Assembly (NCBI RefSeq): GCF_023702635.1
Contig: NZ_CP098455.1
Coordinates: 124,001-188,000 of the forward strand
Reading direction: 5' to 3'
DNA length: 64,000 nt
Source of the DNA: Spongiibacter taiwanensis
Lineage (GTDB): Bacteria > Pseudomonadota > Gammaproteobacteria > Pseudomonadales > Spongiibacteraceae
The first letter of the stretch is position 1; each line of letters begins with the position of its first letter. The translations under genes were made by a program, and so were the position numbers. The notes beneath the pieces were generated by a model. It was not told where the DNA came from and searched no databases. It was given only the letters and a program-made list of their open reading frames with translations. Positions 9,679 through 42,576 of the stretch are shown one piece after another.

Positions 9679-10536
9679 ATGGATCAGATTATTCCTTTTT
9701 ACTTCCAGGGCAGCCAAGTTCGTACGCTCAAAGACGAGAACGGGCAGCCATTATTTGTAGCTACTGATGTTGCGAGTGTGCTTGGGTATGAGCGCCCGGA
9801 AAATGCTGTAGCGAGGCATTGCGCGGACTCCCTGAAACGGGGAGTCCGCAACTCGCGCGGAGAGATGCGACCCACAGATTGCATCTACGAGCCTGACGTT
9901 TACGCCATGATCTTTGGCAGCAAGCTTCCATCTGCCAAGAAGTTCCAGCGTTGGGTCTTTGAAGAGGTGCTGCCAAGCCTGCGGCGCGATGGTTACTTCC
10001 GCACAGACCGGAAGTACAACATGGAATTCCCGTTTGATATGCCTGCCATGACTCGCCAGTTTTCGGCGGGGCTGACCTACCTGGAGCGCTCCGGGGTTCC
10101 TAAGCACCGGGCGGTGGCGATGTCGAACCGCATGGTGGCTGAAGTTACTGGCATTGATGTCCTGGAGATGCTTGGCGCCAAGGAAGAGGCGCTGGCAGAG
10201 AATCCGAAGGTGGCTCAGTTCTGGAATATTTACGAGGCGGTGTGCTTGGATGAGAAGGGCAACAACATTCTGAACCACAGTAAGGATGATGCGTACATTG
10301 CCCTGAACCTGAATCACTTTATCGATGTGGCCGCAGAGAACGGCTTTGATGTGCCGGAAGGCGTGAAGTCTGCCCTGAAAACCAGCGTGGATCGCCGCTT
10401 TGTAGAAACCAAGCCGGTGAACTCCCGTATCACTGGCGGCACGGTTCGATGCTGGGTGTTCTGCACGAGCAATCCTGACCTGGTGGATTTCCAGAACGAG
10501 CGGCGGCTTCGACTAGTGGAAGAAGATACCGAGTAA
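9679..10536 (+). CDS. Bro-N antirepressor with C-terminal domain shared with the phage primase
   Basis: 285 aa from ATG 9679 (an upstream GTG/TTG-type extension is unnecessary). Residues ~1-110 are a Bro-N domain (VRTLKDENGQPLFVATDVASVLGYERPENAV… QRWVFEEVLPSLRRDGYF), DNA-binding and typical of phage antirepressors. Residues ~173-280 (LNHSKDDAYIALNLNHF … VRCWVF) closely match the last 100 residues of the primase-helicase at 39916-42576. It is the first gene after the non-coding left arm and convergent with the next gene. Exact role unknown; likely regulates the lysis/lysogeny decision. Confidence 0.85.
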   Translation: MDQIIPFYFQGSQVRTLKDENGQPLFVATDVASVLGYERPENAVARHCADSLKRGVRNSRGEMRPTDCIYEPDVYAMIFGSKLPSAKKFQRWVFEEVLPSLRRDGYFRTDRKYNMEFPFDMPAMTRQFSAGLTYLERSGVPKHRAVAMSNRMVAEVTGIDVLEMLGAKEEALAENPKVAQFWNIYEAVCLDEKGNNILNHSKDDAYIALNLNHFIDVAAENGFDVPEGVKSALKTSVDRRFVETKPVNSRITGGTVRCWVFCTSNPDLVDFQNERRLRLVEEDTE

Positions 10537-10552
10537 ATATCCGCTGGCCATC

Positions 10553-11161
10553 TTACTCAAACGTCAATTGATGAAGCTTCCAGTTCTCCGTGAAGGCAGT
10601 GTCGCCTGTGTGAAGGAACTGTATGTCGCAGTACCAAGTCATTCGGATATTAGCGTTGTAATGATTTTTTGTATCGACATGCGACTTTATCGTGTAACGG
10701 CCCCTATTTTTCCGAATGGTTATGTAGTCGTAAAAGGGGAAGTCAGCATCTTTGGGGCTCAGCATCTCCGACCTGACAAGGTCTTGGCACTTGATGCGAG
10801 CGGAAATATCTAAATCGGAGTCAATGTCGTCGAGTTCGTCGTAGTGGCTTCGGAACTTTTCTGGCAGATTGTTGTGCTCATTGACGCACCATCCTAAGAC
10901 GGTTGTGAAGAGGAGGTCGGCGTTCTTTTGTGGAGCGAAATCGTTAAGGCAGACTTTAAATTGTTCCAGGTTATATCCTGAATTGCCCTCGCTTTTTAGA
11001 AACTTGTCTATGACTTTTGGCCGATCACTTGGGGTCAGAGCTATATAGTCAGAAAGATTGAGCTGAGCGATTTCGCTTTCGGAAGGGAGGCCGTCATCGA
11101 ACAACACAACGGCTACGCCCAAACCTATAAAAATAGAACCAACCCACGAACTCCATTTCAT
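10553..11161 (-). CDS. Membrane-anchored hypothetical protein (prophage cargo)
   Basis: 202 aa from ATG 11161, which has GGAAAG 5 bases upstream; longer starts are less likely. One N-terminal hydrophobic segment (WVGSIFIGLGVAVVLF) then a soluble, acidic, Cys-containing domain, presumably periplasmic. AT content is higher than in its neighbours. It is transcribed against the surrounding phage genes, a pattern of lysogenic-conversion genes. No family recognised. Confidence 0.7.
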   Translation of the reverse strand: MKWSSWVGSIFIGLGVAVVLFDDGLPSESEIAQLNLSDYIALTPSDRPKVIDKFLKSEGNSGYNLEQFKVCLNDFAPQKNADLLFTTVLGWCVNEHNNLPEKFRSHYDELDDIDSDLDISARIKCQDLVRSEMLSPKDADFPFYDYITIRKNRGRYTIKSHVDTKNHYNANIRMTWYCDIQFLHTGDTAFTENWKLHQLTFE

Positions 11162-11218
11162 GCTGCTTTCCATTTGTTGAGTGATTTGGTGCACGCTAGC
11201 AAGGAAAGTGCTATTCTG

Positions 11219-11420
11219 CCACTACTACATCGAAAGCGGTATCCGCACCCGTCAGCCTTGCGGTTTTTTTGTGCCTTTTATTTGGGCATGAACGCCTGTT
11301 ATGGCGGGATGATAGGGCCGAATACAATACCCTTCGGGGGAATAAGCCCAGCCGCCTTTCGACGGTAGTTGAGTCCCGCCGCCCTCATTCAAGGTGGCAC
11401 ACTACTAAATCGAAAGGAGG
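11219..11420 (+). ncRNA. C4-like antisense RNA leader (P1/P4-type immunity element)
   Basis: Layout matches the C4 leader of P1/P4-like phages: ACTACTACATCGAAAG (11221) repeated as ACTACTAAATCGAAAG (11401); a terminator hairpin CCGCA…TGCGG plus T7 (~11252-11269); then a ~78-nt structured core closed by GGCGGGA (11303-11309) and TCCCGCC (11374-11380). The core segment GCCGCCTTTCGA (11351-11362) is antisense, 11 of 12 bases, to TCGAAAGGAGGC (11410-11421), which holds the ribosome site of the next gene. It therefore probably blocks translation of that gene in the lysogen. Exact RNA ends unknown. Confidence 0.7.
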
Positions 11421-11426
11421 CCATGT

Positions 11427-11756
11427 ATGGCTGCTCAAAAACATGCAAGTTGTAAAACTCCCTCCCATTCAGCCGAGGCTGTCTGGCGGCAATCGCCCAT
11501 CTCCCGCAGTGCCTTTTTGTTCTTCTTCCACTTTGTTGACTACACCCACGCCTGCAGCGTTGATCAAGATCCCCGTGAGTTCTGGCCGGAAGTGTTCCGC
11601 CTTCTGGATTTGGCGGCGACAATCCCCGGACTGAAATTGGACAGACGCATAGCCGATCTGGTGGAGCGCCTGCAGCCCGCAGTGGACGCCTTTGATTTTA
11701 TGGAATGCGCGGTGGTTCTCAGTGAGTGGCTGATGGAACACGAGGGGGAGGTGTGA
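11427..11756 (+). CDS. Small phage protein downstream of C4-like RNA
   Basis: 109 aa from ATG 11427 (another ATG at 11423 opens an 10-codon frame in a different phase). AAAGGAGG lies 7 bases upstream. Basic N-terminus with a short hydrophobic run (SAFLFFFHFVDY), then a soluble helical part. By position it corresponds to the ash/icd/ant-type genes controlled by C4 RNA in P1/P4-like phages, whose products act on the host or on the repressor. No residue-level match claimed. Confidence 0.65.
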   Translation: MAAQKHASCKTPSHSAEAVWRQSPISRSAFLFFFHFVDYTHACSVDQDPREFWPEVFRLLDLAATIPGLKLDRRIADLVERLQPAVDAFDFMECAVVLSEWLMEHEGEV

Positions 11757-11757
11757 G

Positions 11758-12057
11758 ATGGCTGGCAAAAATGGAAAATCGGTCACCCAATCGCGCGCTG
11801 ATGACGGCGTTCCAGCAAGATTCACTATTTTCGGCTTTACGCCGATTTGCCCTCACTGCACGTACCCTGCCAAGGATATTTACACTTGCTACCTTACCCG
11901 GTGCGCCACAGAGCTGTTTTTGTCCTGCAGCAACAGCCGTTGCGGGCATCGTTGGGTAGCGTCATTAACGGCGACGATGACCGTGTCGGCTTCAAAAATT
12001 GAGAGTCCAAAGGTCCGGCTGTGCAAGCAGCCGCGGGGAAGCCTTTCGGCAGTGTGA
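11758..12057 (+). CDS. Ogr/Delta-like zinc-finger late activator
   Basis: 99 aa. CPHC near residue 31, later SCSNSRCGHRWVASLTATMTVS at ~57-78, the Ogr/Delta Cys4 zinc-finger layout of P2/P4 late transcription activators. C-terminal tail after the finger is longer than in P2 Ogr (72 aa). Starts 1 bp after the previous stop, so translation is coupled, and converges on the portal gene. Candidate protein for the dyad sites at 14876, 20758 and 27884. Confidence 0.8.
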   Translation: MAGKNGKSVTQSRADDGVPARFTIFGFTPICPHCTYPAKDIYTCYLTRCATELFLSCSNSRCGHRWVASLTATMTVSASKIESPKVRLCKQPRGSLSAV

Positions 12058-12069
12058 GGTGGTGGGCGG

Positions 12070-13080
12070 CTAGTCAGAGCTGCCGAGGCCTTCGATTCGG
12101 TATTCATCAAACCGCATGACCTCTTCGCCGATCCAATCGTTCAGGGCGCGGTAGCGTTCCTGCAGGGGCTCGACCTCGTTGGCGGCGAAGACTTTTGCGG
12201 CTTTCTCGGGATCCCCGAGGCCGCTGGTGTTGGTGGGAATGACGCCCATGAGCTGGGGCGGTACGCGGTGGCCGGCCATGAGGTCGTCCCGGGTGACGTT
12301 TTTGATGTTGAAAAACTCATCCTTTGCACTGACTTCGCTGATGGGGATGATCTGCATGCCGTCTTTTTTGCCGTTGGGCGCGTACATGAACAGGTTCTTG
12401 AAGTTACCCGGGCCCTTGCTTTCCTTCATGGCCTTGCGGATCGCGTCCACATCCTCGCCATTCTGGCTGGCGTCGGTCATGTACAGGATGAAGCCTGCGT
12501 GGCTGCCGTTGTCGTAATAACGGCGGCGGAATATGGTGGCGCTCTCATTCAGCCAGGCACTCTGCAGGCTGGACATATATTCCGGCACGCCGTACATCTC
12601 TTGATTGATATCCGGTTGCAGTAGGTGGAACACCGAACCGGCCGCAAATTCGTGGGGGTTGCCCGCGTCGTGGATAAACCAGTAGGCATCTTCTTTGCCG
12701 CGGCGGGTGAATTTGCTCAGGCTGTGGCGCAGGCGGATGGGTGTGCCTAATCGGCTGGTTTCACGCTCCAAGTAGGCATTGCCGAACACCAGGTCATCGA
12801 GGACGAACTTTTCAAACTCCTGACGACTCAGCAGCGGGTGAGGGCGGAAGGTTTTCACCAACACATTTTTTTTCACCTGGATAGCACTGGAGTGGTGAGG
12901 GTTGGCCCGGTAGGTTTTGGCCAGGCCGTTGACTGATACCGGCGGCTCATACCATTTGCCGCTAAACCACGACTCGGTGTAGCCCAAGATATCCCGGGCG
13001 GCCAGCACCGGCTCGGCATCGCCAAAGGTGAACACCTCGGTCTTGTGTTTTTTGGCGGGTTTGGCTTTCGCGGTGGCCAT
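12070..13080 (-). CDS. Q: Phage portal protein (P2 gpQ)
   Basis: 336 aa (P2 gpQ is 344). PBSX-type portal features: WYEPPVSVNGLAKTYRANPHHSSAI near the start, GNAYLERE, and DDLMAGHRVPPQLMGVIP then EPLQERYRALND at the end. Forms the dodecameric DNA channel at the capsid vertex. Its ATG overlaps the stop of P by one base, and both run leftward as in P2. Confidence 0.95.
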   Translation of the reverse strand: MATAKAKPAKKHKTEVFTFGDAEPVLAARDILGYTESWFSGKWYEPPVSVNGLAKTYRANPHHSSAIQVKKNVLVKTFRPHPLLSRQEFEKFVLDDLVFGNAYLERETSRLGTPIRLRHSLSKFTRRGKEDAYWFIHDAGNPHEFAAGSVFHLLQPDINQEMYGVPEYMSSLQSAWLNESATIFRRRYYDNGSHAGFILYMTDASQNGEDVDAIRKAMKESKGPGNFKNLFMYAPNGKKDGMQIIPISEVSAKDEFFNIKNVTRDDLMAGHRVPPQLMGVIPTNTSGLGDPEKAAKVFAANEVEPLQERYRALNDWIGEEVMRFDEYRIEGLGSSD

Positions 13081-14828
13081 TAGAAAATCTCCAATATGCT
13101 GTTGTTGCCCGCGCTCTCATGGAGCGGGGCGTTGTCGAGTGCGTGCATGAGTGCCCAGGCCAAATCCGCATGGCCGCTTTCGTTGGTGCGGCTAGCCTGG
13201 TAGGTCATCTGTCCGCCGCCGGCGGTCATGGTCCGCTTGATCATCAGCATGGCGTGAACCATATCGGTCCAGCCGTTATCAAATTCCAGGCGGCCATGGG
13301 AAATAATGTCTTTGGCCTTGAGCACCATTTGGGCCTTGATGCCAGGGTTGTAGTCGTAACCCACAGCGCGGGGGAAAAAGCGGCGGACCATATCAAAAAC
13401 GCCGGTGCCAATCGCGGTTTTATCGATGCCAATATGGGTAACGTTGTAAATTTCGGTCAACTTTTTTATGCGCTCAGCTTGGTCGACAAAGTCCATGCCC
13501 ACCCAGTTAAGCTTATCCAGAATGCGGTGCTTGCCGCCCGGTACCGGCGAAGGGGCGACCACCACACAGCTGGCGTTGTCACTGGTCCGCGACGGGTCAT
13601 AGCCTATCCACACATCGCGGCTGCCGATCGGTCGGGGAGCCAGTGGCTTGTAGTCATCCCAAGCCACCCAGCTGTCCACCATGCAGGCCGTCAGTTCAGT
13701 GAAGGAAAACACCGAAAAGGTGTCATCCACAAACTGGCACATAAAGAGGTTTTCCATTTCCTCTGGGCTGTATTCCAGGCGCAACTGGTCAATATCAAAC
13801 AGGTCGCAGCCCTTAGCCTCGGCATCCAATAGAGTAACGATTTGCCGCCATTGGCCGTCTTCACACATGCGGCCGGGTGAAAGCTTTTTGTGGGAAACGT
13901 CCAACTGGATCTGGTCTTCTTTCTTGCGCCCCCGGTTAAACAGCGCACCGGTCCAAAACGGATATGCCTCGTGGTTAACGCTGGAAGGGGTAGAAAAATA
14001 GGTCTGCCGCCACTTTTTGTGAGCCGCCATTCCCGAGGCCACTTTCCTCAGTTTCTGAAAATTGTTTGTCCAGAAATATTCATCGAAATACAGATGGCCG
14101 TGGTAGCTCTGTGCGGTGTTGCTGTTGGTAGACAGGAATATCAGCTCCGCACCATTGGGCAGCACAATCGGGTCGCCAGTCAGTTCTACGTCGCCCCATT
14201 TCTTGGCCGACTGCACCACATAATTTCGGAACACGTGCGCCTGAGCTTTTGAGGCTGATATAAAAATCTGGTTGTCTCCGGTTTCTGCAGCGTCAACAAA
14301 AGCCTCGTTGGAAAAATAGTAAGTTGCGCCGATTTGGCGACTCTTTAGTACGTCTCTGATACGGCAAATGGTCTTTTTACTGAGCCAAATTTTCTGGTAG
14401 CCAAATATCTCATCCATGAACCCTTCTTTGATGCGGTCCAGCGCTTCCGGCGAGATCTCATTCTTGATTTTTTTATTGCTGCGCCGCTTTCCCCTGTTGC
14501 GATTGCGAACGTTTGGGTTTAAATCTGCCTCGTTGCCGCCATCGTCATAGCGACGAATGCGGGCTGTGCGCTCAAGGCTTTTGGTCAGCACCTCGATCTC
14601 TTTCAGGTCCTGATCGGTTTTTTCATCTTTCTTCAGCAGCTGGCACAGCCGGGCATCGATTGATTGCTCAACCCGCTGCACCACGGGCGCATTGTCCCAA
14701 TCGTCCCGACGCTTCCAGCTGTGAAGGGTGGCGCCGGGCACAGATAACCGCCGAGTAATCTCGGGAATGCGGTAGCCCTGCCAATAGAGCAACCGCGCTT
14801 CTGTTCTGTCATCTGAGGCCGTTTTCAT
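13080..14828 (-). CDS. P: Terminase large subunit (P2 gpP)
   Basis: 582 aa (P2 gpP 590). N-terminal HTH-like segment (ITRRLSVPGATLHSWKRRDDWD), Walker A-like SRQIGATYYFS (~residue 168), Walker B LYFDEYFW, and a C-terminal nuclease region beginning DVWIGYDPSRTSDNASCVVV. Packages DNA by ATP hydrolysis and cuts cos. Transcribed divergently from gene O, with the dyad at 14876 between them. Confidence 0.96.
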   Translation of the reverse strand: MKTASDDRTEARLLYWQGYRIPEITRRLSVPGATLHSWKRRDDWDNAPVVQRVEQSIDARLCQLLKKDEKTDQDLKEIEVLTKSLERTARIRRYDDGGNEADLNPNVRNRNRGKRRSNKKIKNEISPEALDRIKEGFMDEIFGYQKIWLSKKTICRIRDVLKSRQIGATYYFSNEAFVDAAETGDNQIFISASKAQAHVFRNYVVQSAKKWGDVELTGDPIVLPNGAELIFLSTNSNTAQSYHGHLYFDEYFWTNNFQKLRKVASGMAAHKKWRQTYFSTPSSVNHEAYPFWTGALFNRGRKKEDQIQLDVSHKKLSPGRMCEDGQWRQIVTLLDAEAKGCDLFDIDQLRLEYSPEEMENLFMCQFVDDTFSVFSFTELTACMVDSWVAWDDYKPLAPRPIGSRDVWIGYDPSRTSDNASCVVVAPSPVPGGKHRILDKLNWVGMDFVDQAERIKKLTEIYNVTHIGIDKTAIGTGVFDMVRRFFPRAVGYDYNPGIKAQMVLKAKDIISHGRLEFDNGWTDMVHAMLMIKRTMTAGGGQMTYQASRTNESGHADLAWALMHALDNAPLHESAGNNSILEIF

Positions 14829-14875
14829 GCGCTCAGATTACGGGCAAACCTGCCGCCCCCTTATGTAGCCAAGGT

Positions 14876-14892
14876 GTAAAGCCCTTGTTTAC
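14876..14892 (+). promoter_or_regulatory. Putative late-activator dyad between P and O
   Basis: GTAAA-GCCCTTG-TTTAC, a 5+7+5 inverted repeat in the divergent P/O intergenic region, where P2 has its Ogr-dependent PP and PO promoters. Related copies occur at 20758 and 27884. Extended similarity: GGTGTAAAG…GTTTACTC. Confidence 0.6.
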
Positions 14893-14986
14893 TCCCGCGC
14901 CGCCTTGGCGTGTCAAAACAATTCCGCAACGCTACCGCTCAATAGCTGATTTCACAGCCCAACAGCCACCAAAGCGGATGCAGAAT

Positions 14987-15844
14987 ATGAAATCGAAATT
15001 TTTCCGAGTTGCCGTTGAAGGCCAGACCACCGATGGCCGCGCCATCACCCGCGAACAGATTGTGGACATGGGCAGCACCTACAACACAGAAAAATACGGC
15101 GCCCGTATTTGGCTGGAACACTTGCGGGGCCTATTCGCCGAAGGTCCATTCCCCGCCTTGGGTGACGTGGTAGAAGTCAAAGCAGAAGAAATCAAAGAGG
15201 GCGAGTTGAAAGGAAAAATGGCCCTCTACGCCGCCATCGATCCGACCAAAGAGCTTATTGCGATTAACGAAAAGCGCCAGAAAATCTACACCTCTATCGA
15301 GTTGGACCCCGACTTCGCTGGCAGCGGCCAGGCCTATATGTACGGGCTGGGCATTACCGACAGCCCCGCCAGTCTGGGCACTGAGGCCCTGAAATTCTCG
15401 GCGGAGAAACCGGCAGAAGAAAAGCTGTTGGCCAGCCGCAAAGCCCGACCCGAGAACCTGTTCAGCGCAGCGATGGAAGTCGACATTGTGTTTGAAACCG
15501 AAAGTAAGCCGGACTCAAAAACCGACGAAAGCGGGCTCTTTGCCAAGATCAAAGACATGTTCAAAAAGCAGTCCCGTGACACACGCGAAGAGTTCAGCGC
15601 TGCCATCGATACCCAAAACGACGCCATCACCCTGGTAGCGGAAGAGGTAGTCAAGCTGTCCAGCAGCCTGGCCGATTTAGCCGATAGCGTGAAGGCGGGT
15701 GGTGACACCAGCGGACTGCAAACCCAATTCTCCGCCCTGCAGGAAGAGCTGACCACGCTCAAAACCCAGCTCGGCAAAGAACACAAGCATAGCCAGCGCC
15801 CGTCCGCCACCGGTGGTGACGGCGAAGTCCTGGCAGATTGTTAA
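14987..15844 (+). CDS. O: Capsid scaffolding protein / protease (P2 gpO)
   Basis: 285 aa from ATG 14987 (P2 gpO 284); an in-frame ATG at 14978 is possible but its spacing to AGCGG is poor. N-terminal serine-protease half with KYGARIWLEHLRG (catalytic His), ITDSPASLGTEAL (catalytic Ser), and an alpha-helical C-terminal scaffold (coiled coil ~200-265). Guides shell assembly then cleaves itself and the capsid protein. Confidence 0.93.
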   Translation: MKSKFFRVAVEGQTTDGRAITREQIVDMGSTYNTEKYGARIWLEHLRGLFAEGPFPALGDVVEVKAEEIKEGELKGKMALYAAIDPTKELIAINEKRQKIYTSIELDPDFAGSGQAYMYGLGITDSPASLGTEALKFSAEKPAEEKLLASRKARPENLFSAAMEVDIVFETESKPDSKTDESGLFAKIKDMFKKQSRDTREEFSAAIDTQNDAITLVAEEVVKLSSSLADLADSVKAGGDTSGLQTQFSALQEELTTLKTQLGKEHKHSQRPSATGGDGEVLADC

Positions 15845-15904
15845 CCCAACAACCCCGAAAGCAACAGGCCGACAGCACAAAGACTTTGATTAGGAGCAAC
15901 TGGC

Positions 15905-16948
15905 ATGCGTAAAGAAACCCGCGAAAAATACAACGGCTATTTGGCCCAGCAAGCCGCGCTGAATGCCATTGCGCTTGAAGATATCAAGGGGGGCACCAAG
16001 TTCAGTGTTGAGCCCTCAATTTCCCAAACCTTGGAAGACCGTATTCAAGAATCCTCTGCCTTCCTGCAGAGCATCAACGTGGTGCCGGTTACCGAGCAAG
16101 AGGGCGAAACCCTTGGCTTGGGTACCAGCTCTACCATCGCAGGCACTACCGATACGGATTCAACCGATCGCGCTACAACCGACCCCACCGGGCTGAACGC
16201 GTTTGGTTACCGTTGCGAGCAAACCAACTTCGACACCCACCTGAAGTATTCCAAGCTGGATATGTGGGCAAAATTCCCCGATTTTCAAACCCGCATCCGC
16301 GATGCCATTCTGCGCCAGATCGCCCGCGACCGCCTGATGATCGGGTGGAACGGTACCAGCCGCGCTGCCACCTCTAACCGTGGCACCAACCCGCTGTTGC
16401 AAGATGTGAACAAGGGCTGGATTCAGTATGTGCGCGACAATGACGCCGCCCGCATTATGAGCGAGGTCGAAGCCGCCTCTTCCGCTGTTAACGTCGGCAC
16501 CAACGCCGGTTATGACTACCAGAACCTGGACTCGCTGGTGTTCGATGTGGTCGAAAACCTGCTGGACGAATGGCATGCCGAAGACACTGGCCTAGTGGCC
16601 ATCATGGGCCGTCAACTGCTGGCGGATAAATACTTCCCCATCATTGATGACAACAACACGCCCACTGAGAAAATCGCCAGCGACATGATTATTTCCAGCA
16701 AGCGTGTTGGCGGTCTGCCAGCGGTACGGGTGCCTTTCTTCCCGGCGCGCAGCATCGTGGTGACCACATTGGACAACCTGTCCATCTACTGGCAAGAGGG
16801 CACGCGCCGCCGCACCGTGGTGGACAACGCCAAGCGCGACCGCGTGGAAGACTACCAGTCCATCAACGAAGACTACGTAGTGGAAGACACCGGCGCCTTC
16901 GCCGCTGTCGAGAATATCAAACTGTGGAACGGCACTGCCTACGCGTAA
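15905..16948 (+). CDS. N: Major capsid protein precursor (P2 gpN)
   Basis: 347 aa (P2 gpN 357), HK97-like fold. Opens MRKETREKYNGYLAQQAALN, the region trimmed by gpO in P2. GEQ-type motifs and RRRTVVDNAKRDRVEDYQSINEDYVVEDTGAFAAVENI at the C-terminus are typical. AGGAGCAACTGGC is the ribosome site. Confidence 0.96.
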   Translation: MRKETREKYNGYLAQQAALNAIALEDIKGGTKFSVEPSISQTLEDRIQESSAFLQSINVVPVTEQEGETLGLGTSSTIAGTTDTDSTDRATTDPTGLNAFGYRCEQTNFDTHLKYSKLDMWAKFPDFQTRIRDAILRQIARDRLMIGWNGTSRAATSNRGTNPLLQDVNKGWIQYVRDNDAARIMSEVEAASSAVNVGTNAGYDYQNLDSLVFDVVENLLDEWHAEDTGLVAIMGRQLLADKYFPIIDDNNTPTEKIASDMIISSKRVGGLPAVRVPFFPARSIVVTTLDNLSIYWQEGTRRRTVVDNAKRDRVEDYQSINEDYVVEDTGAFAAVENIKLWNGTAYA

Positions 16949-17003
16949 GCGTGGGTAGCTGCCGATACAGCTAAACCACTAACCAGCAATAAACGGGGCG
17001 AAC

Positions 17004-17654
17004 ATGACACCAGCAGAGCGGCACCGCCAGCGCATGGCGGCCAAAATCGAAGCCGAGAAAAACGCTGATCCAGCCAACACCCAAAACCACACCGCCTACG
17101 AGCGGCAGCTGGTTTTGCTGGCTGAACATAAGCGTCAGCTGAAAAGCATTCAAAGCATCGAGAAGAAAATTGAGCTTAAAAAGCAGCTGATTCCTGATTA
17201 CGCAGCCTACATTGCTGGGGTTCTGGAAGCGGATGCCGGTGGCGCGGATGAAGTTGTCACCACGCTTTTGCTTTGGTGCATCGACGCCGGTTATTACGAA
17301 GGCGCGCTGGAGCTGGCTGAATATTGCCTGCGCCACAACCTGCCCACGCCAGACGCGCATCAGCGCACCATGGGCACGGTGATCGCCGAAGAGTTTGCCG
17401 ATTACAGCCTTAAAGGGGCAGAGGGCATCACGCTGGCCATGCTGCAGCAAGTTCAGGAGCTGACCAAAGAGCAAGACATGCCCGACCAGGTGCGCGCCAA
17501 GCTGCACAAGGCCATCGGCTATGAGCTGAGGGAAACCGACAAGCCCGCCGCCCTGACTGCGCTGCAACGCGCCCTGGAGCTGAACACCGCTGCGGGCGTG
17601 AAAAAAGACATTGAAAAACTGGAGCGGGAAATTAAAGCCGCTGCCAGTCAATAA
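17004..17654 (+). CDS. M: Terminase small subunit (P2 gpM)
   Basis: 216 aa, mostly helical. MTPAERHRQRMAAKIEAEK at the start and DEVVTTLLLWCIDAGYYEGALELAEYCLRHNLPTPD in the centre are the P2 gpM signature. Recognises cos and regulates the gpP nuclease-ATPase. Confidence 0.93.
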   Translation: MTPAERHRQRMAAKIEAEKNADPANTQNHTAYERQLVLLAEHKRQLKSIQSIEKKIELKKQLIPDYAAYIAGVLEADAGGADEVVTTLLLWCIDAGYYEGALELAEYCLRHNLPTPDAHQRTMGTVIAEEFADYSLKGAEGITLAMLQQVQELTKEQDMPDQVRAKLHKAIGYELRETDKPAALTALQRALELNTAAGVKKDIEKLEREIKAAASQ

Positions 17655-17760
17655 GAGGGTCGCCCCGCCGACGGAAGACCCGGCTGGAGGTTTTGAAATT
17701 GGTCAAAGCTGAAAGCCGGGCGCTTCTTAACGCAAAGGGCACATCAATATAGGTGAGATA

Positions 17761-18449: not shown

Positions 18450-18451
18450 CC

Positions 18452-19416: not shown

Positions 19417-19469
19417 CGCTGCGGCGTTGCGGTTGAATTATTGCCACAAGATACAGTCAAGGATTAAGA

Positions 19470-20727: not shown

Positions 20728-20757
20728 AAACCACCCCATAAAATACCCCGCCAAGCC

Positions 20758-20774: not shown

Positions 20775-20822
20775 ACCGCCGCAGCCACTACGCGCGCGCA
20801 TAAATCATCAACAATCACAGCC

Positions 20823-33090: not shown

Positions 33091-33100
33091 GGGCTAAGCC

Positions 33101-34527: not shown

Positions 34528-34651
34528 GGTTATTTTCTAACGCTCTTTCCCTTGTCTGAGTTTCTCACTGAGACCGTTTCGGGCTGATGCGATTCGGATT
34601 CAGTAGGTTTTGGCTTTGGGGTAGTATCTTCGTTCGACATTGGAGGCTCCT

Positions 34652-35152: not shown

Positions 35153-35842
35153 CTAATGAGGATTGCGGCAACTAGTCGCCAACTGGGAAATAGCGCTGGA
35201 TTCTGAAGGGTAGAACACAAGCCTATACTTCGCCACTAATGTTTTGAACCTACCCAAGTACTCACACCGATATGCCGCCGCAGGCGGCATCCAGTCATCA
35301 GGCCCTTTGGCGCCTTTCTCCCGGTTGGCTCCAGCATCCACAGCCAACAAGTTATCCATGTCATTGGCGAAGGCGCGCTTCTGTGCCCTTGTCCAGCCGC
35401 CGGCACCGTGTCCATGCGCCCAGGCCAGCGGCACGATGTGATCAATATCCAAATCGGAGGCTTTATCAAAAAGCTGTCCGGTGTAGGGGTCTAGCCACGA
35501 TCCGTGGCTAACTGAGCAGCCTTTATTGCGCTTGAACTTGACCGGCACTTGGCTATCACGAATCAGGACCTCAGCGCGGGTGTCTTGGCAGTCGTTATCC
35601 GCATCTACCCAGTGTGGCCAGTCAGCCCGGTCATAGAGACTGGAGAAAGCACGACCTTCATCAACGGCTTCGGTTTGTGCCTTTTCGACTAGGGATTTAA
35701 CAGAAGTGCAGGGTGCGCGGTGGCAGTGGTATTCGCCGGTCTGGCGATTGTTATGGCCGCCGTTGCTATCGAGACCACCGCCGTGAGGAAAAGCGCTGGG
35801 CGCAAAAATCAGGAGAGAAACTAAAAACAGTCTATTTAACAT
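35153..35842 (-). CDS. Secreted HNH-type endonuclease (DUF1524-like)
   Basis: 229 aa. Signal peptide (MLNRLFLVSLLIFAPSAFPHG), then HGGGLDSNGGHNNRQTGEYHCHR, a His-rich YHYH-like stretch, and an HNH core DLDIDHIVPLAWAHGHGAGGW…NDMDNLLAVDAGANREKGAKGP. Same architecture as secreted proteins of the GmrSD/DUF1524 nuclease group. Probably acts in the periplasm or outside the cell. Leftward, against the phage genes on both sides. No immunity gene recognised. Confidence 0.82.
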   Translation of the reverse strand: MLNRLFLVSLLIFAPSAFPHGGGLDSNGGHNNRQTGEYHCHRAPCTSVKSLVEKAQTEAVDEGRAFSSLYDRADWPHWVDADNDCQDTRAEVLIRDSQVPVKFKRNKGCSVSHGSWLDPYTGQLFDKASDLDIDHIVPLAWAHGHGAGGWTRAQKRAFANDMDNLLAVDAGANREKGAKGPDDWMPPAAAYRCEYLGRFKTLVAKYRLVFYPSESSAISQLATSCRNPH

Positions 35843-35874
35843 AACGCAAATGCAATCCGTGCATGCTCGTTTTC

Positions 35875-36261
35875 TTACCCTTTATTTTCTAGCGCCTGGC
35901 GAAGTCCCGCGATGTGTAGGGCCATGCGTTCGAGGTGGAGGAGGTCGTCTAGGGTCAGGTGGCCATCTTCATAGAGTGATTGAATTCTTAATAACGTCTC
36001 TTCCGTTCTCTGTGGTTCAGAATCTTCCAGGCGCTTATCTCTAAGCCAAACAGGTGGATTAAACTCAAACAACTCGCAAATAAGAACTATGTTCTCTGCC
36101 GTTATATTCCCTGTTCTTTTCCACTTCGATACGGCGCTCTCTGTTACCCCCAGTGCTGTGGCAACTTGTACCTGAGACACGCCCGCCTCATTGAACAAGG
36201 TTGCAAGCCACTCCGAATTCTCGGCGAGTATGTTGTCGTCTCTATTACGCATCTTTCCCAT
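35875..36261 (-). CDS. CI-like phage repressor (XRE family)
   Basis: 128 aa from ATG 36261 (ATG 36252 is an alternative). N-terminal HTH: VSQVQVATALGVTESAVSKWKRTGNITAENIVLICELFEFNP. C-terminal helical segment with LLRIQSLYEDGHLTLDDLLHLERMALHI, lacking the LexA-type Ala-Gly cleavage and Ser/Lys residues, so it is not self-cleaving. Divergent from the Cro-like gene. Shares a 15-residue identical recognition region with it. Confidence 0.88.
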   Translation of the reverse strand: MGKMRNRDDNILAENSEWLATLFNEAGVSQVQVATALGVTESAVSKWKRTGNITAENIVLICELFEFNPPVWLRDKRLEDSEPQRTEETLLRIQSLYEDGHLTLDDLLHLERMALHIAGLRQALENKG

Positions 36262-36285
36262 AGGTCAAGTTTATACGAAAAACCG

Positions 36286-36336
36286 TTGACATTTACTGTC
36301 CAGTTGGTTCAGTATTCTCCGAAAAGGTGAACCTTT
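36286..36336 (+). promoter_or_regulatory. Early rightward promoter and putative operator
   Basis: TTGACA (36286-36291), 18-bp spacer, CAGTAT (36310-36315), followed by the palindrome AAAGGT-GA-ACCTTT (36323-36336) near the expected transcription start. Lies between the divergent repressor and Cro-like genes. Operator role is inference. Confidence 0.6.
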
Positions 36337-36346
36337 AGGAAAGTAT

Positions 36347-36568
36347 ATGTCCGCAATTCAACGCGCAATCGATCTCCTCGAAAGCCAAAAGTCCCTAGCC
36401 GATTTCTTGGGGGTGACAGAGAGCGCCGTATCCAAATGGAAACGGACAGGTGTTGTTCCTCCACACCGCTGCCGCGCCATAGCGCAGGCTACAGATGGTG
36501 CTATTTCAGTTCACGACCTGAGGCCCGACATCTTTGGTCCTCCTTCTCCTGTGAAAACTGAATCCTAA
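36347..36568 (+). CDS. Cro-like / YdaS-type HTH regulator
   Basis: 73 aa. AIDLLESQKSLADFLGVTESAVSKWKRTGVVPPHRCRAIAQATDGAISVHDLRPDIFG follows the YdaS/Cro pattern. TTTAGGAAAG upstream is the ribosome site. First gene of the rightward early operon and expected to oppose the repressor. Confidence 0.9.
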   Translation: MSAIQRAIDLLESQKSLADFLGVTESAVSKWKRTGVVPPHRCRAIAQATDGAISVHDLRPDIFGPPSPVKTES

Positions 36569-36628
36569 ATCCAAACAGTTAGAGCGTCTTGAATATCCGA
36601 TCACAGACCACTCAGCGAGGCGAAAACC

Positions 36629-37192
36629 ATGAGTAACGCAACCAGGGTAGTAAATCTGATCAACTTCCACGGGGTCACCATGATTGTGGTGGAACATGAA
36701 GGGGTGCAGTACATCCCTTTCAAACCCCTGGTAGACCTCTCCGAAACTGACTGGCGGAATGCAAAAAAGGCCGCTTTTTCGGTTGATAACGCGATTTTGT
36801 TTGGCTCCAAGCTGCTAAAAGACCCCATTTTTGCAGCCGAGGGGGGTGATATCACCCCCCAGAAAGAGAGCATTTATATCCGTCTTGACCGTTCGCGGAT
36901 GTTTCTAGCGCGCATTCAAACAAGCCGAGTCCGAGCGCAAGGCAACGAAGAGGCCGCCGAAAAGCTCCTGAAGCTCCAAATCGAATGGGCGCAGGCTCTC
37001 CACTCCTACGAAACCAACGGCGTCGCCTACAAGCGCGGCAAGGGTGAGGCGGTTAGCCAGCTCGACAAGCTGATTCGCTCTCGCAACGCCACCAATGACG
37101 CCAAGGAAAAGCAATCCATCTCCCTGCTTATCCGTGACCACCTGAATGAAATGGGCGCAGCCGTCGATGACGACATGCCGCTTTTCCAATAG
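36629..37192 (+). CDS. Phage antirepressor, P22_AR_N type
   Basis: 187 aa. NLINFHGVTMIVVEHEGVQYIPFKPLVDLSETDWRNAKKA and ESIYIRLDRSRMFLARIQTSRVRAQGNEEAAEKLLKLQIEWAQALHSYETNGVA fit the P22 Ant N-terminal family. Second antirepressor of the prophage besides the Bro-N protein. Confidence 0.85.
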   Translation: MSNATRVVNLINFHGVTMIVVEHEGVQYIPFKPLVDLSETDWRNAKKAAFSVDNAILFGSKLLKDPIFAAEGGDITPQKESIYIRLDRSRMFLARIQTSRVRAQGNEEAAEKLLKLQIEWAQALHSYETNGVAYKRGKGEAVSQLDKLIRSRNATNDAKEKQSISLLIRDHLNEMGAAVDDDMPLFQ

Positions 37193-37215
37193 CCGAGCCA
37201 TTCCACGTGGTTGAT

Positions 37216-37308
37216 ATGAATATCAAAGCACCCCGCATGCACGCTGAGTTGCTGGTTCTGAAATCTGTGCGACGTTGGTGGAGCAACTACCAACAAGGAA
37301 GGAAATAA
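37216..37308 (+). CDS. Very small ORF, possibly translated
   Basis: 30 codons from ATG 37216 (GTG 37207 adds three). Basic peptide (MNIKAPRMHAELLVLKSVRR…). Ends two bases before the next ATG and its last codons contain that gene's ribosome site (AAGGAAGG), so it may act as a coupled leader peptide. Weak evidence. Confidence 0.35.
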   Translation: MNIKAPRMHAELLVLKSVRRWWSNYQQGRK

Positions 37309-37310
37309 GC

Positions 37311-37880
37311 ATGGAAATAACAAACCTACAGAATCGTTTGGCCCTGATCCGTCGCTACCTCGATAAGTGGGCTGCCAGCCCGCGCCATAACCGCCAGGTT
37401 GTGGCGGAAATCGTTGTCGAAAAATTTGACGAACTAGGGCTGAAAGAACAACTGGCGGGCACCGGGGTCGAGTTTTCCCATGGGGATGACGCGGTAGGGG
37501 ATATGCGGGCGCATGCCCAAAAGCTTTGGCGCTGGCTGGGGGCCTACGAAGAAGCCAAGCCCGCCCCAGACAAACTCTGGTACATGGAGCAGGCCATTGT
37601 TGCCGCCATGCCACAAGACATGCGCCTTCATTACCTACGTGATGTGTATTCAGAGGCCGGTGTTGCTGTCTCCATTCGGATCGATGGGAGTAGCGCTGCG
37701 CTCGCGGCTGATCTGCTGATTAAGGAACAGTCAGACGCTGCTCGCTCAGTGGTAGCGCTGCTGGATGGCATCGACCCGGGCGAACTGGATAAGGCAGATA
37801 AAGAGTTGCACGAAGCCCTGTCGGCCACCGTTAGCGCCATCAACTACGTTAAATCCCTGCGCGCGGGAGGTGCCCAATGA
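37311..37880 (+). CDS. Early phage protein of unknown function
   Basis: 189 aa from ATG 37311 behind AAGGAAGGAAATAAGC. Helical, no membrane segment. Contains KLWRWLGAYEEAKPAPDKLWYMEQAIVAAMPQDMRLHYL. No family recognised. Overlaps the following zinc-finger gene by 4 bp. Confidence 0.7.
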   Translation: MEITNLQNRLALIRRYLDKWAASPRHNRQVVAEIVVEKFDELGLKEQLAGTGVEFSHGDDAVGDMRAHAQKLWRWLGAYEEAKPAPDKLWYMEQAIVAAMPQDMRLHYLRDVYSEAGVAVSIRIDGSSAALAADLLIKEQSDAARSVVALLDGIDPGELDKADKELHEALSATVSAINYVKSLRAGGAQ

Positions 37881-38101
37881 GCCGCCTGGTGCCATGCCCC
37901 CACTGCCTCTGCGACAGCTACATCCGCGACAGCGAGCAGATGACCCGGCTCACCCGGGAATTAACGCTGATCTGCAAAAACCCGGTTTGCGGCCACACCT
38001 GGGTGGCCCATTTAACCGCCACCCGGACGCTGTCCGAGTCGGCAACTCCCCACCCCTCGGTTCACCTTCCGGTGACCAAGGGCCTTTTCTCCAAAAACTA
38101 A
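37877..38101 (+). CDS. Second Ogr/Delta-like zinc-finger protein
   Basis: 74 aa, the normal Ogr size. CPHCLCDSYIRDSEQMTRLTRELTLICKNPVCGHTWVAHLTATRTLSES has Cys4 spacing and the RTS/T-like and C-GHTWVA motifs of Ogr/Delta. Located in the early operon rather than after D. Either this or the 11758 gene could drive late transcription. Confidence 0.85.
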   Translation: MSRLVPCPHCLCDSYIRDSEQMTRLTRELTLICKNPVCGHTWVAHLTATRTLSESATPHPSVHLPVTKGLFSKN

Positions 38102-38114
38102 CGCAGGTGCGACC

Positions 38115-38459
38115 ATGAGCAATGTATTGCCTTTCAGCCCAGAAACCACTGTCAGCAACGCAGCCATGAGCTATGTGCTGGCACACCGTAACCAGCATCT
38201 GGCCAGCCGCGAGGGCAACGAGGCGCTGGTGTCGCGCTGCCAGGCGCACCTCATGATGGCCTTTGATATCACCGCCGACCGGGCACAAAAAGAAGCGGCC
38301 CTGGCATTGGCCGAGGCAAGCCATACCGGCGAGGTGTGGCTTGACGCCGAGGCGACCACGGCGTTTTACACCACACTGCGCACCAAGGACGGCCGCCAGA
38401 TCATTGTGAGTGCAGACCAGATTCTGCACGCCATTACCGACTTTTTCTCACTCCAATAA
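38115..38459 (+). CDS. Early phage protein of unknown function
   Basis: 114 aa. AMSYVLAHRNQHLASREGNEALVSRCQAHLMMAFDITADRAQKEAALALAEA suggests a helical fold. GCAGGTGCGACC upstream. It sits 11 bp before the clamp gene, so may serve replication. No family recognised. Confidence 0.65.
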   Translation: MSNVLPFSPETTVSNAAMSYVLAHRNQHLASREGNEALVSRCQAHLMMAFDITADRAQKEAALALAEASHTGEVWLDAEATTAFYTTLRTKDGRQIIVSADQILHAITDFFSLQ

Positions 38460-38470
38460 CGAGGCCCCAC

Positions 38471-39562
38471 ATGAACGTGACTGTGAATGCACAGGGACTG
38501 GCTGCCGCCCTGAAAAACAATCTTGCGCAAAAGCGCAGCACCCTAAACATCTATGAGCATGTGCTGTTGATTGCCACCCAGTCGCCCGCTGAGCTTCGGG
38601 TGATCAGCCGGGACGGCAGCCAGGAGCGCGAGGTGGTGATTGCTGCTGAACGGGTAGAGCAGGGCGGTAGCGTTACCTGCCACGCTGAAAAGCTGCAGGC
38701 GGCTGTCACCGGTTTGGCTGGGCCTGCGACGCTCAGCACCGAGGGCAGCCCCGGCACCGAGAAGTTTAAAACCGTGCTGCAGCAGGGCCGTCGGCGGTTT
38801 CAGATTTTGTCCCTCTCGGCAGACATTTTCCCGAAGGGGCAGGCAATGGGCCGGGCAATGACGCCGGTGCTGGACCCGCAAGCGCTGGCCAAGGCCATTG
38901 CTACCGTGCAGTACGCCGCGGCGGTGAATGATGTGCGGTTCATGCTGCTGGGCGTCCACCTCAACGAAGGCGACGTGGTGGCCGCCGACGGGCACCGGTT
39001 GGCCTGTGCGTCTGTTGATGCAGATTTCAAACCCATCACCATCCCCCGGGACAGCCTGAAAAACCTGATTGCCGCGCTGATGGAAGAGGGCGCCGAGCTT
39101 CAGTACAGCGACAGCGCCATTGAGGTGACCCACGCGGCCGGCCGGTACCGGTCCCAGCTGCTGGACTGCCAATACGTGGATTACAAGCGGGTGATGCACA
39201 TCCCTGAAACGGGCGTGAAGGCAACCCTGGACGCCACCCATATTTCCCCGGCCTTGAGCCGCCTGCGCAGCTTTGTGCCGGTGGGCACCAACATGCTGGG
39301 CTGCATGATTGAAGACAACCTGCTGACGCTGAGCGCCGGGGACGACAGCAAGAATAAGGGCGAGCCCGCAGCCAAGGACGAGGCCCCAGCGACCTGCCAA
39401 GAAAAGTGGCCCAAGGTGTATATGAATCTGGCCTACGTGAACGACGCCATGCATTCCATCAAAGGCGAGTTTACCTGGCTCAATTCTGGTGCCCACAACG
39501 CCCAGGTGTTGTGGACCGGCAATCAGGAAATCGTGCATGTGCTCATGCCGATTCGCATGTAG
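38471..39562 (+). CDS. Phage-encoded DNA polymerase III beta sliding clamp homologue
   Basis: 363 aa, close to bacterial DnaN (366). Three-domain clamp pattern: MNVTVNAQGLAAALKN at the start, RFMLLGVHLNEGDVVAADGHRLACASV in the middle (matches DnaN R-LNG-…DGHRLA), VDYKRVMHIP, and the C-terminal VLMPIRM equivalent to VIMPMRL. A polar insertion (DDSKNKGEPAAKDEAPAT) sits near residue 300. Overall divergent from host DnaN. Probably a processivity factor for phage replication, or a competitor of the host clamp. Confidence 0.88.
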   Translation: MNVTVNAQGLAAALKNNLAQKRSTLNIYEHVLLIATQSPAELRVISRDGSQEREVVIAAERVEQGGSVTCHAEKLQAAVTGLAGPATLSTEGSPGTEKFKTVLQQGRRRFQILSLSADIFPKGQAMGRAMTPVLDPQALAKAIATVQYAAAVNDVRFMLLGVHLNEGDVVAADGHRLACASVDADFKPITIPRDSLKNLIAALMEEGAELQYSDSAIEVTHAAGRYRSQLLDCQYVDYKRVMHIPETGVKATLDATHISPALSRLRSFVPVGTNMLGCMIEDNLLTLSAGDDSKNKGEPAAKDEAPATCQEKWPKVYMNLAYVNDAMHSIKGEFTWLNSGAHNAQVLWTGNQEIVHVLMPIRM

Positions 39563-39603
39563 ATCGAGCCATGAAAACCAGTGACCAAAACGGAGAAAGC
39601 ATC

Positions 39604-39906
39604 ATGAATGAAGCCATGTTGAGAAACCTGACCCTGGATGAGCTGGAGTGTCATTTGCGTGTGACCGAGCAGGGCAGCCCGGCACATATTGCAGTGTGTA
39701 TGAAGCTCGATGAGCTGGATGTGCCGGACGCCCGGCATGAGCAAGCCGTTACCCGCCTGACTGAGCTCAAAGCTGGCGCGAACAATCTGTCCAAGGCGAT
39801 AGAAAGTATTTCTAACGCCGTCCGCGATCAGCTTGGCGGGCTATTCGACGACGCAGAGCAGCTCAGCGCCGACATAACTACGATTCAGCACAGCCTGCAA
39901 TTCTAA
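39604..39906 (+). CDS. Small helical early protein
   Basis: 100 aa from ATG 39604 (GGAG 8 bases upstream; in-frame ATG 39571 is an alternative). Entirely helical, acidic, with a probable coiled coil (AVTRLTELKAGANNLSKAIESISNAVRDQL). Lies between clamp and primase-helicase. Function unknown. Confidence 0.65.
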   Translation: MNEAMLRNLTLDELECHLRVTEQGSPAHIAVCMKLDELDVPDARHEQAVTRLTELKAGANNLSKAIESISNAVRDQLGGLFDDAEQLSADITTIQHSLQF

Positions 39907-39915
39907 GGGGCTGCC

Positions 39916-42576
39916 ATGATCCCAGCGGTACACAACGATATCACCCAGCGCCTGCTGCGGGATTATCAGTTCAAAGAGCGGGCAGGGTGGTTGCGGTCGG
40001 GCATCTGCCCCAGCTGCAGCAAAAAAGAGCTCTACGCCAAAGCGGAAAGCCCTTGGGTTATCCGCTGCGGCAGGGAAAACAACTGCGCCTGGTCTGGCCA
40101 CATTAAAGAGCTTTACCCCGATGCGTTTGAGAAATTCAACGAACGCTACCAGCCCACCGACGATAACCCCCGGGCCACTGCCGACGCGTACTTGATGCAG
40201 GCCAGGGGCTTCGACATTACCCGCATTGCCGGCTGGTATGAGCAGGATCGCTGGTGGAGCGCCAACGTCATCGGTAAGCAGTCGGGCACGGCCACCGTGC
40301 GCTTTATGATTGCCGACGGCATCTATTTCGACCGCTTTGTTGAAGAGCTTTGGGTAAATGACAACGGCGAGAAGAAGAAGCGCAAGGCCTCATTCAAAGG
40401 CGATTATAAAGGCTTGGCCTGGTTGGCCCCGGGGCAGGAAATTGCTCAGGGCGACGAGGTGTTTATTGTAGAGGGCATTCTGGATGCCATTGCCCTTTAC
40501 CTGAACGGCTACAAGGCCTGCGCCATTCTGGGTTGCACCAACTTCCCCGCGGCGTTTTTTGATGAGCACAAGCATAAAGACGTGCGCTGGGTGTGGGCGC
40601 TGGACGGTGACCACGCTGGCCGCAAGTGGACTCTGCGCCACCATACCCGCCTGGCTGAAACCAAAGAAAGTTCCAGCGCCGTCACCATCCCCCAAGACAG
40701 CAAAGGCAAAGACGACTGGAACGACCTGCACATGCAGGCCCGCCTCACCGACAAGGACATGGCCCGGTATCGCTACCACGGCAGTTTGCTGATTGCCGCC
40801 AGTGCCAGCGAAAAGGCCTTGCTGATGTACAACCACCACCAGCGGCAGGAGTTTAATTTTGAGTTTCGCAGCCGGGTGTACTGGTTTGCCCTCAACCTGG
40901 ATAAGTTCAACAAGGCCTATAACAGCCTGGCTGATGGCGACGAAGGCCTGACTGAAAAGCAGATGCGCGATAAGGCCCTGGAGCTGAGCAACAGCATTTG
41001 CGAGATCGCCAACTGCCACTTTCAGTTTTTGTATTTTCAGGCCAACACCATCACCGATGAGAGTTGGTACTACGCCCGCATCACCTTTCCCCACGGTGGT
41101 CTGCCGGTCAAAAACACCTTTACCGGGGGCCAGCTTTCCAGCGCCAGCGAGTTTAAAAAGCGGCTGTTGTCGGTGGCGGCGGGCAGTGTGTTTACCGGCA
41201 CCAGCCAGCAGCTGGACACTATTGCCAAAGACCAGCTCTACAACATTAAAACCGTGAACACCATCGACTTTTTGGGCTACAGCAAAGAGTTTGGCATTTA
41301 CGTTTATAACGATGTGGCGGTGAAAGATGGCCGCCTGATTGCCATTAACGACGAGGATTATTTTGACGCGGGCAAGCTGGCCATCAAGAGCCTGAACCAA
41401 TCCGTTCACCTGGCTATTGCCAAGAATGCCGACAACTACCGGACTGACTGGGTTCACCACATTCATGTGTGCTTTGGTGAAAAGGGCCTGGTGGCGCTGG
41501 CGTTCTGGTTTGGTGCCTTGTTTGCCGAGCAGATCCGCGAGACTCAAAAAAGCTACCCGTTCTGCGAAATCATTGGCGAGCCCGGCGCCGGTAAAACCAC
41601 CCTGATTGAATTCCTCTGGAAGACCTTTGGCCGGCGCGATTACGAAGGCTTCGACCCCAGCAAATCCACCGCGGCGGCCCGGGCCCGGAATATGGGGCAG
41701 GTGTCCAACATGCCGGTGGTGCTCATTGAGGGCGACCGGGACGAAGATACCGCCCACGGCAAAAAGTTTGACTGGGATGAGCTGAAAACCGCCTACAACG
41801 GGCGGTCGGTGCGTAGCCGGGGAATGAAGAACAGCGGCAATGAAACCTACGAGCCGCCATTTCGGGGTGCCATTGCCATCAGCCAGAACGCCGCTGTGCA
41901 GGCCAGTGAGGCGGTGCTGCAGCGGATAGTGCATCTGCGCTTTACCCGGGCCGCCCACAATGACGACAGCAAGCGAATGGCCCACGAGCTGGAGCACATG
42001 CCCCTGGAGCATGTGAGCAGCTTTGTGCTCGAGTCAGTAAAGAAAGAGGCCGATGTCATGGCCCTGATCACCGAGAAAACCCCTGAATTTGAAAAGCGCC
42101 TGATGGCCCAGCCCGGCATTAAGAACGTGCGGATCGCTAAAAACCACGGCCAGCTGTGTGCCCTGGTGAGCGCCCTTGCGCTGGTGCTGCCCCTCAGCAA
42201 AGAGCAGGTGCAGGCCGCCCAGCGGGAGCTGCTGAACATGGCCGTGGAGCGCCAGCAGGCCATCAGCGCCGATCATCCGGTGGTGCAGGAGTTCTGGGAG
42301 CAATACGAATTTTTGAATGGCTCCGATAAAGAACCCAAGCTGAATCACAGCAAAAACGACGACCGGATTGCCATCAACCTCAACCACTTTGTTGAGCGCG
42401 CCGTGGAGCACCGCCAGCAGGTGCCGCCCATGACCGATCTGAAACGCCTGCTCAAAGGCAGCCGCCGCTACAAGTACCTGGACACCACTGTGGTCAACTC
42501 TGCCATTTCCCTGAACGGCACAGAGGGCAAGTCGGTGCGCTGCTGGATTTTTGAAAACAAGGAGAGAACCGCGTGA
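39916..42576 (+). CDS. Primase-helicase: zinc finger, Toprim and P-loop ATPase
   Basis: 886 aa. N-terminal zinc-ribbon (CPSCSKK ~32-38, CGRENNC ~54-60), Toprim core (VFIVEGILDAIAL ~181-193 with catalytic Glu; WALDGDHAG ~226-234), then a helicase-type ATPase with Walker A GEPGAGKTT at ~554 and PVVLIEGDRDED. The last ~100 residues repeat the C-terminal domain of the Bro-N antirepressor. Resembles phage bifunctional primase/helicases (P4 alpha/T7 gp4 principle) but with its own domain order. Likely the replication initiator or replicative helicase, replacing P2 gpA. Confidence 0.88.
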   Translation: MIPAVHNDITQRLLRDYQFKERAGWLRSGICPSCSKKELYAKAESPWVIRCGRENNCAWSGHIKELYPDAFEKFNERYQPTDDNPRATADAYLMQARGFDITRIAGWYEQDRWWSANVIGKQSGTATVRFMIADGIYFDRFVEELWVNDNGEKKKRKASFKGDYKGLAWLAPGQEIAQGDEVFIVEGILDAIALYLNGYKACAILGCTNFPAAFFDEHKHKDVRWVWALDGDHAGRKWTLRHHTRLAETKESSSAVTIPQDSKGKDDWNDLHMQARLTDKDMARYRYHGSLLIAASASEKALLMYNHHQRQEFNFEFRSRVYWFALNLDKFNKAYNSLADGDEGLTEKQMRDKALELSNSICEIANCHFQFLYFQANTITDESWYYARITFPHGGLPVKNTFTGGQLSSASEFKKRLLSVAAGSVFTGTSQQLDTIAKDQLYNIKTVNTIDFLGYSKEFGIYVYNDVAVKDGRLIAINDEDYFDAGKLAIKSLNQSVHLAIAKNADNYRTDWVHHIHVCFGEKGLVALAFWFGALFAEQIRETQKSYPFCEIIGEPGAGKTTLIEFLWKTFGRRDYEGFDPSKSTAAARARNMGQVSNMPVVLIEGDRDEDTAHGKKFDWDELKTAYNGRSVRSRGMKNSGNETYEPPFRGAIAISQNAAVQASEAVLQRIVHLRFTRAAHNDDSKRMAHELEHMPLEHVSSFVLESVKKEADVMALITEKTPEFEKRLMAQPGIKNVRIAKNHGQLCALVSALALVLPLSKEQVQAAQRELLNMAVERQQAISADHPVVQEFWEQYEFLNGSDKEPKLNHSKNDDRIAINLNHFVERAVEHRQQVPPMTDLKRLLKGSRRYKYLDTTVVNSAISLNGTEGKSVRCWIFENKERTA

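Follow-up and report, generated by a model that had tools for sequence, protein, structure and literature searches.

A 64,000-nt stretch of Spongiibacter taiwanensis DNA (contig NZ_CP098455.1, positions 124,001 to 188,000; hereafter the window) harbors a P2-like prophage of 41.6 kb, which encodes a portal protein, a gpP-like terminase and an integrase (Pfam) and is bounded by a 28-nt exact repeat (8769-8796 and 50389-50416), its second copy lying at the end of a tRNA-Ser gene. Two of its genes, coding for a Bro-N protein and for a Toprim primase-helicase (Table 1), concern us here, as their products end in the same C-terminal module. The Bro-N domain scores 83.4 bits against a Pfam cut-off of 25.6, while the primase matches phrog_1139 over its full length (1095.7 bits, residues 5-883). 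The open reading frame (ORF) listed by program for the Bro protein begins 42 nt further upstream, at a GTG codon; its putative antirepressor function takes its name from PHROG families alone. An earlier, sequence-only reading of this DNA placed the two genes 30 kb apart, which is true of the integrated form, but not of the excised circle, on which they are only about 8.7 kb apart because the 28-nt repeat bounds the prophage.

Table 1. Features of the prophage and of its two module-bearing genes (positions in the window).
Feature	Position	Strand	Basis or remarks
P2-like prophage holding both genes	8769..50416		28-nt exact repeat ends; portal, terminase and integrase by Pfam
Mirrored iteron array, candidate replication origin	8955..9256		GTAAT iterons, 6 forward and 3 reverse
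Bro-N protein with shared C-terminal module	9679..10536	+	285 aa from the ATG at this position
Bro-N domain, residues 13-99	9715..9975	+	Pfam, E 1.8e-23
Helical linker, residues 121-156 in model	10039..10146	+	predicted structure; like linker in other carriers
Shared module of Bro protein, residues 160-261	10156..10461	+	BLASTP, PHROGs, model
Wing residue N248 of V-N-S motif (Bro)	10420..10422	+	covariation with iteron base, own-phage test
Toprim primase-helicase, phrog_1139, 886 aa	39916..42576	+	Pfam Toprim_2, PHROGs
Shared module of primase, residues 771-879	42226..42552	+	BLASTP
Wing residue N861 of V-N-S motif (primase)	42496..42498	+	covariation with iteron base, own-phage test

That the two tails are homologous, as had been claimed, is borne out by BLASTP comparison of the two proteins, in which Bro residues 160-261 align with primase residues 771-879 (43/110 identical, 69.3 bits, E 2e-17). 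The claim had been staked on two points, and on both it held: the match between the tails is significant, and neither Pfam, NCBIfam nor PDB sequences yielded a described domain with known function for them. The Pfam scan called only Bro-N and Toprim_2 in the two proteins and no domain in either tail. To call the module undescribed was nearly right: it has no Pfam model, but is present in PHROGs as the C-terminus of phrog_1139 (DNA primase), and it also matches the unnamed phrog_20645 and phrog_18886. In the entire genome, the Bro tail matched only the Bro and primase genes at an E-value of 1 or better. Among PDB sequences it yielded seven matches, of which the sole one with a low E-value, 4yxx (dTor_6x35L), covers 23 residues, the rest being five tandem-repeat or de novo designed chains and 4p99 at E 7.8. 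The primase tail is 91% identical to a tail in Spongiibacter marinus DSM 17750. A literature search (titles and abstract starts of open-licence papers) returned no description of a domain common to an antirepressor and a primase; the Bro-N protein, Toprim primase, winged helix and iteron array are each known in kind, while their combination was not found in the literature so searched.

The AlphaFold2 model of the module (mean pLDDT 84.9) shows the order of a winged helix, helix-strand-helix-helix-strand-strand (H22-35, E52-55, H57-66, H75-79, E86-94, E101-108). In a VIA-align fold comparison, the best matches among the 50 entries listed were to TcpK of the pCW3 relaxosome, also in complex with oriT DNA, followed at lower ranks by the helicase Cch and by PriRep1 with DNA; the P4 alpha origin-binding domain was not among these 50, which has no bearing on kinship.

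We identified 225 module-bearing ORFs in 301 sequences: 187 primases, 24 P22_AR_N-like, seven Bro-N and two KilA-N proteins, and five fragments, although four of the P22_AR_N-like carriers are near-identical and the seven Bro-N proteins reduce to four distinct ones, two of which are 99% alike. The three N-terminal families were confirmed by Pfam in the five carriers scanned. Three further Bro-N carriers were found (L307/G400, L319/G474 and L334/G489), the first in a 14.9-kb contig alongside a P22_AR_N carrier. In the carriers inspected, the module follows a similar helical linker, which is also seen in module-less Bro-N-like proteins. The search of 50,697 phage records gave 20 with a match to the Bro tail and 21 with a match to the primase tail; in the 11 inspected, the module forms the end of long primase-like genes, falling within an annotated gene of 851-910 aa in ten (some named only hypothetical) and within a 931-aa open frame in the unannotated eleventh. 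In phage Smp131 (L006 1657-4342), the annotated primase coding sequence ends in a different frame, and the module lies in a 170-aa open frame. Four plasmid records match the Bro tail. On plasmid p2 of Azospirillum sp. TSH100 (L026 13680-15053), which also has phage tail genes, genes for an acyl-homoserine-lactone synthase and an autoinducer-binding protein are located upstream of the genes for a Bro-N carrier and for its primase; a viral scan with this Azospirillum Bro tail found no relative.

Carriers and tail-bearing primases occur together. There are 27 carrier contigs, and all 14 that are at least 31 kb long, four of which (G394-G397) are near-copies, also encode an ORF of 900-989 aa with the module. 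Twelve of the other 13, which show no such ORF, are 26.7 kb or shorter, and G415 (30.9 kb) has a broken antirepressor. In contrast, the module is absent from all 48 control contigs, which encode KilA-N or P22_AR_N proteins lacking it and of which 47 are at least 33 kb long; it should be kept in mind that most controls are of the KilA-N type and many are near-copies. The contrast is explained in part by shared descent, since the carriers and the tail-bearing primases belong to one phage group. In a tree built from 132 modules, those of antirepressors number 28, and 26 of these, including that of the window, form one clade (98/97), although columns are few and the bootstrap had not settled. Of the other two, that of L218 is an unplaced long branch, and that of L198 groups inside with its own primase (99/82), a separate, recent capture by the neighboring gene.

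A noncoding stretch upstream of the Bro gene contains nine GTAAT sites (Table 1) and has a GC content of 0.34, as opposed to about 0.5 at least in its surroundings. Short repeats in an AT-rich noncoding stretch are as expected for an iteron origin of the kind recognized by Rep of Staphylococcus aureus pathogenicity islands (SaPI) and by Cch2. Unlike SaPI origins, the window array does not lie directly downstream of the initiator gene; such a location, directly behind the primase gene, is occupied by the array in G469, G470, G472, G482 and G486 (starting about 80-360 bp behind the gene), L113 and L013. In L218, encoding a P22_AR_N carrier, the same layout is found directly upstream of the carrier gene, which itself sits between array and primase. 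Within the 3.8 Mb of sequence examined, exact CGGAAAAGCGT is present in the window array, in L218 and once in L268, with a one-mismatch pair in L134. A DNA-only scan of IMG/VR for the array edge GGGNTTCGGAAAAGYGTWA yielded 27 contigs, 22 of them with the mirrored second edge (the exceptions being L310, L319, L320, L328 and L330). With the contig of L218 excluded, 17/26 encode the module, as do 10/11 of those at least 20 kb long, the lone long contig without it, L330, having a single match and no iterons; leaving out G473 and G478, already found through their primase, gives 15/24 and 9/10, respectively. Seven carrier contigs have a clear array; in six of these (the window, L218, L190, L192, G474 and G489), all but G411, it lies no more than about 1 kb from the antirepressor gene. 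Scanning of 29 carrier loci revealed a clear array in three (L359, L192 and L190) and a weak one in L361.

Similar arrays occur near primases of Comamonas (GTAAC, GTAAT), Halomonas (GTAAC), and Pseudomonas and its phages (GTAAT, GTTAG, GTCAG, GGAAC, GGAAG). Their geometry is conserved while the letters differ: L359 (GTAAC) and L185 (GTAAT) have the same forward offsets (0, 9, 74, 85, 119, 204) and identical reverse offsets (103, 169, 181, 191, 257, 266). A loose repeat criterion failed to distinguish module loci (17/86) from controls (15/79), whereas the strict geometry, defined afterwards, is present in 13/86 module loci, four of them fetched by array pattern, versus 1/79 controls. A k-mer search for arrays that ignored geometry was not specific, and GC skew gave no clean origin signal. 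The sole control with strict geometry, L298, has GTCAC iterons (five forward, five reverse) and a KilA-N-like ORF, and may hold a related origin with another initiator. We also note ATAAATCARTGRSTTA in three copies in or beside the window array (8814-8834, 9111-9131 and 9310-9330), with a similar stretch inside the L218 array; these copies are candidates for a second motif of the array element or for integrase sites.

The identity of the iteron is reflected in the module. The x of the wing motif V-x-S, first spotted by eye and afterwards ranked along with all other columns, is the only one of 105 columns that fully splits 10 GTWAC primases (R/K) from seven GTAAT primases (N/S/H). Two predictions were read afterwards: L115 has N, as expected, and L185 has H; later arrays agree (G411, R with GTAAC; G392, Y with GTAAT). 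The remaining iterons combine as GTTAG with D (L171), GTCAG with E (L011), GGAAG with H (L009) and GGAAC with R (L013). Even close Comamonas relatives differ in this respect, with GTAAC and K in L113 and L120, and GTAAT and N in L115 and L116. Because several of the sequences are closely related, independent residue-base cases are few, and a value of 0.0005 obtained for the pattern, from hand-collapsed lineages and arrays picked after the pattern was known, is not relied upon. The location of the covarying residue in the modeled wing is suggestive of DNA being read by the wing, in the manner of TcpK.

The antirepressor module also resembles the primase module of its own phage. With L198 excluded as a recent copy, 16 antirepressor-primase pairs had 467 identities versus 435.6 under shuffled pairing (standard deviation 11.0, P 0.003), with P 0.012 in 14 less redundant pairs; the members of one pair, L025/L022, lie on a bacterial contig at a distance of 28 kb and possibly do not belong to one prophage. 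The top column in this test is again the wing residue, identical in 8/16 pairs versus 2.35 expected (0/5000 shuffles), the eight mismatches (antirepressor/primase) being A/D twice, K/D, H/D, A/N, S/N, C/Y and K/R. Between the Bro proteins of G474 and G489, the linker and module are identical at 149/153 positions, while the N-terminal parts agree at only 73/114.

Homology, architectures, co-occurrence, the array with its conserved geometry, the residue-base fit and the own-phage match were all computed directly, and together they make it probable that the module is the origin-recognition winged helix of the primase, which reads the iteron array and has been borrowed by antirepressors acting at the same array. 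From them we infer an origin in the array, a module that binds it, and an antirepressor that acts at this same place. Primase-helicases of this family would recognize the phage origin through the module, the origin being an AT-rich array of about 270-350 bp with 5-bp iterons of the GTAAx type, in which iteron pairs 9 bp apart usually mark both ends and point inward, and one wing residue would read the fifth base. Bro-N, P22_AR_N and KilA-N regulators would have gained the module behind a helical linker, in one early event and at least one more recent one, and their tail would bring the N-terminal regulatory domain to the origin of their own phage. At this site, the antirepressor may be a competitor of the primase, or newly made origins may titrate it, and one DNA address would thus serve lysogeny control as well as replication. 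The sequence-only reading had proposed a common partner, either a host replication protein or a DNA site. The latter is indirectly supported by the winged-helix model, by the linkage of the array to module phages, and by a wing residue that tracks both the iteron base and the own primase; no result pointed to a host replication protein. Its other suggestion, that the antirepressor regulates replication, is plausible, and its effect, in our view, would most likely be that of a brake or a timer.

It is unlikely that the module serves protein binding, joining primase and antirepressor to one another or both of them to a shared replication protein. Proteins are possible ligands of winged helices, and an interface could produce the own-phage match just as DNA could, but the best-matched column also tracks a base of the DNA repeat, which would be unexpected for a protein interface. 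The same link between the fifth base and a primase residue, along with the location of the array directly behind the primase gene in the seven cases listed above, argues against a different role of the array, in integration, packaging or the control of transcription, in place of an origin; this we consider improbable, even though in the window and in L134 the array has the integrase side on one flank and the portal gene on the other, and related repeats occur around attL of the window.

Neutral shuffling, in which recombination swept the tail into antirepressors of one phage group with no specific role, could draw on the descent underlying part of the co-occurrence and on the long branches of the module in several antirepressors. 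It appears quite improbable, however, given that three N-terminal families carry the tail, that the tail was kept while the N-terminal part changed in the G474/G489 comparison, and that the antirepressor clade is separate from the primases and still matches them within phages. Possible, though in our view doubtful, is a role of the carriers as BstA-like superinfection or defence factors, which would halt the replication of related phages entering the cell by targeting their origins, and would not be antirepressors of their own phage. The faster divergence of N-terminal parts than of the tail between G474 and G489 would be in keeping with such a role, but a tail matched to the primase of the carrier fits self-control at least equally.

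If the module is indeed an origin reader shared by the two proteins, it would predict both an origin and an initiator domain for P2-like phages having this primase, would account for one unnamed tail across antirepressors of three N-terminal families, and would connect DNA replication directly to lysogeny control, in a way accessible to ordinary binding assays; prophage induction would be tied to DNA copying if both proteins read the replication start. The natural contrast between K/GTAAC and N/GTAAT in close Comamonas phages offers a test that requires no designed change. We give even chances to a broader proposal, whereby such proteins constitute a class of switch proteins addressed to their own origin, with N-terminal domains being swapped and the tail tuned via the wing residue to the iteron letter of the primase, and the free antirepressor reporting origin copy number to the lysis-lysogeny switch. 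The recognition code proposed for the fifth base would then be Arg or Lys for C; Asn, Ser, His or Tyr for T; and Asp, Glu or His for G.

Several other features of the window deserve mention. A second antirepressor-like gene without the module (36629-37192, plus strand; P22_AR_N, 32.9 bits) lies upstream of the primase gene and adjoins a repressor-like gene. A 43-nt inverted repeat (36110-36152 and 36408-36450; 88% complementary, 255 nt between copies) overlaps the end of the repressor-like gene and the gap behind it, and a gene for a GmrSD_C/HNH-like protein (35153-35842, minus strand), possibly a defence gene, also adjoins the repressor-like gene.

Comparison with known systems suggests that the single steps of the proposal have precedent in SaPI Rep/Cch2, TcpK and RepR/RepR'. 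As in SaPI Rep and Cch2 of the staphylococcal cassette chromosome SCCmec, whose C-terminal domains recognize iteron origins, with SaPI origins located just downstream of rep (PMC7581432, in part), the C-terminal domain of a replication helicase would recognize an iteron origin. Those are, however, other proteins in other hosts, binding was measured for them and is deduced for the present module, and the part of PMC7581432 available to us mentions no antirepressor with the same domain. TcpK of plasmid pCW3, a winged helix and the best fold match among the entries listed, places its wing in the major groove of the 9-nt tandem repeats that it binds (PMC6137059, in part), and the terminal iteron pairs of the present arrays are 9 bp apart. 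RepR and RepR' of plasmid pIGRK have a common DNA-binding part and opposite effects at one origin (PMC6854812, in part); the pair goes back to in-frame truncation of one gene, whereas the present antirepressors are fusions to another regulator. BstA, compared on these features alone, likewise combines a KilA-N-like N-terminal domain with a link to phage replication sites (PMC8585504, in part). The carriers share their N-terminal domains (Pfam) with Bro-N, P22_AR_N and KilA-N antirepressors, but add to them a primase-type tail.
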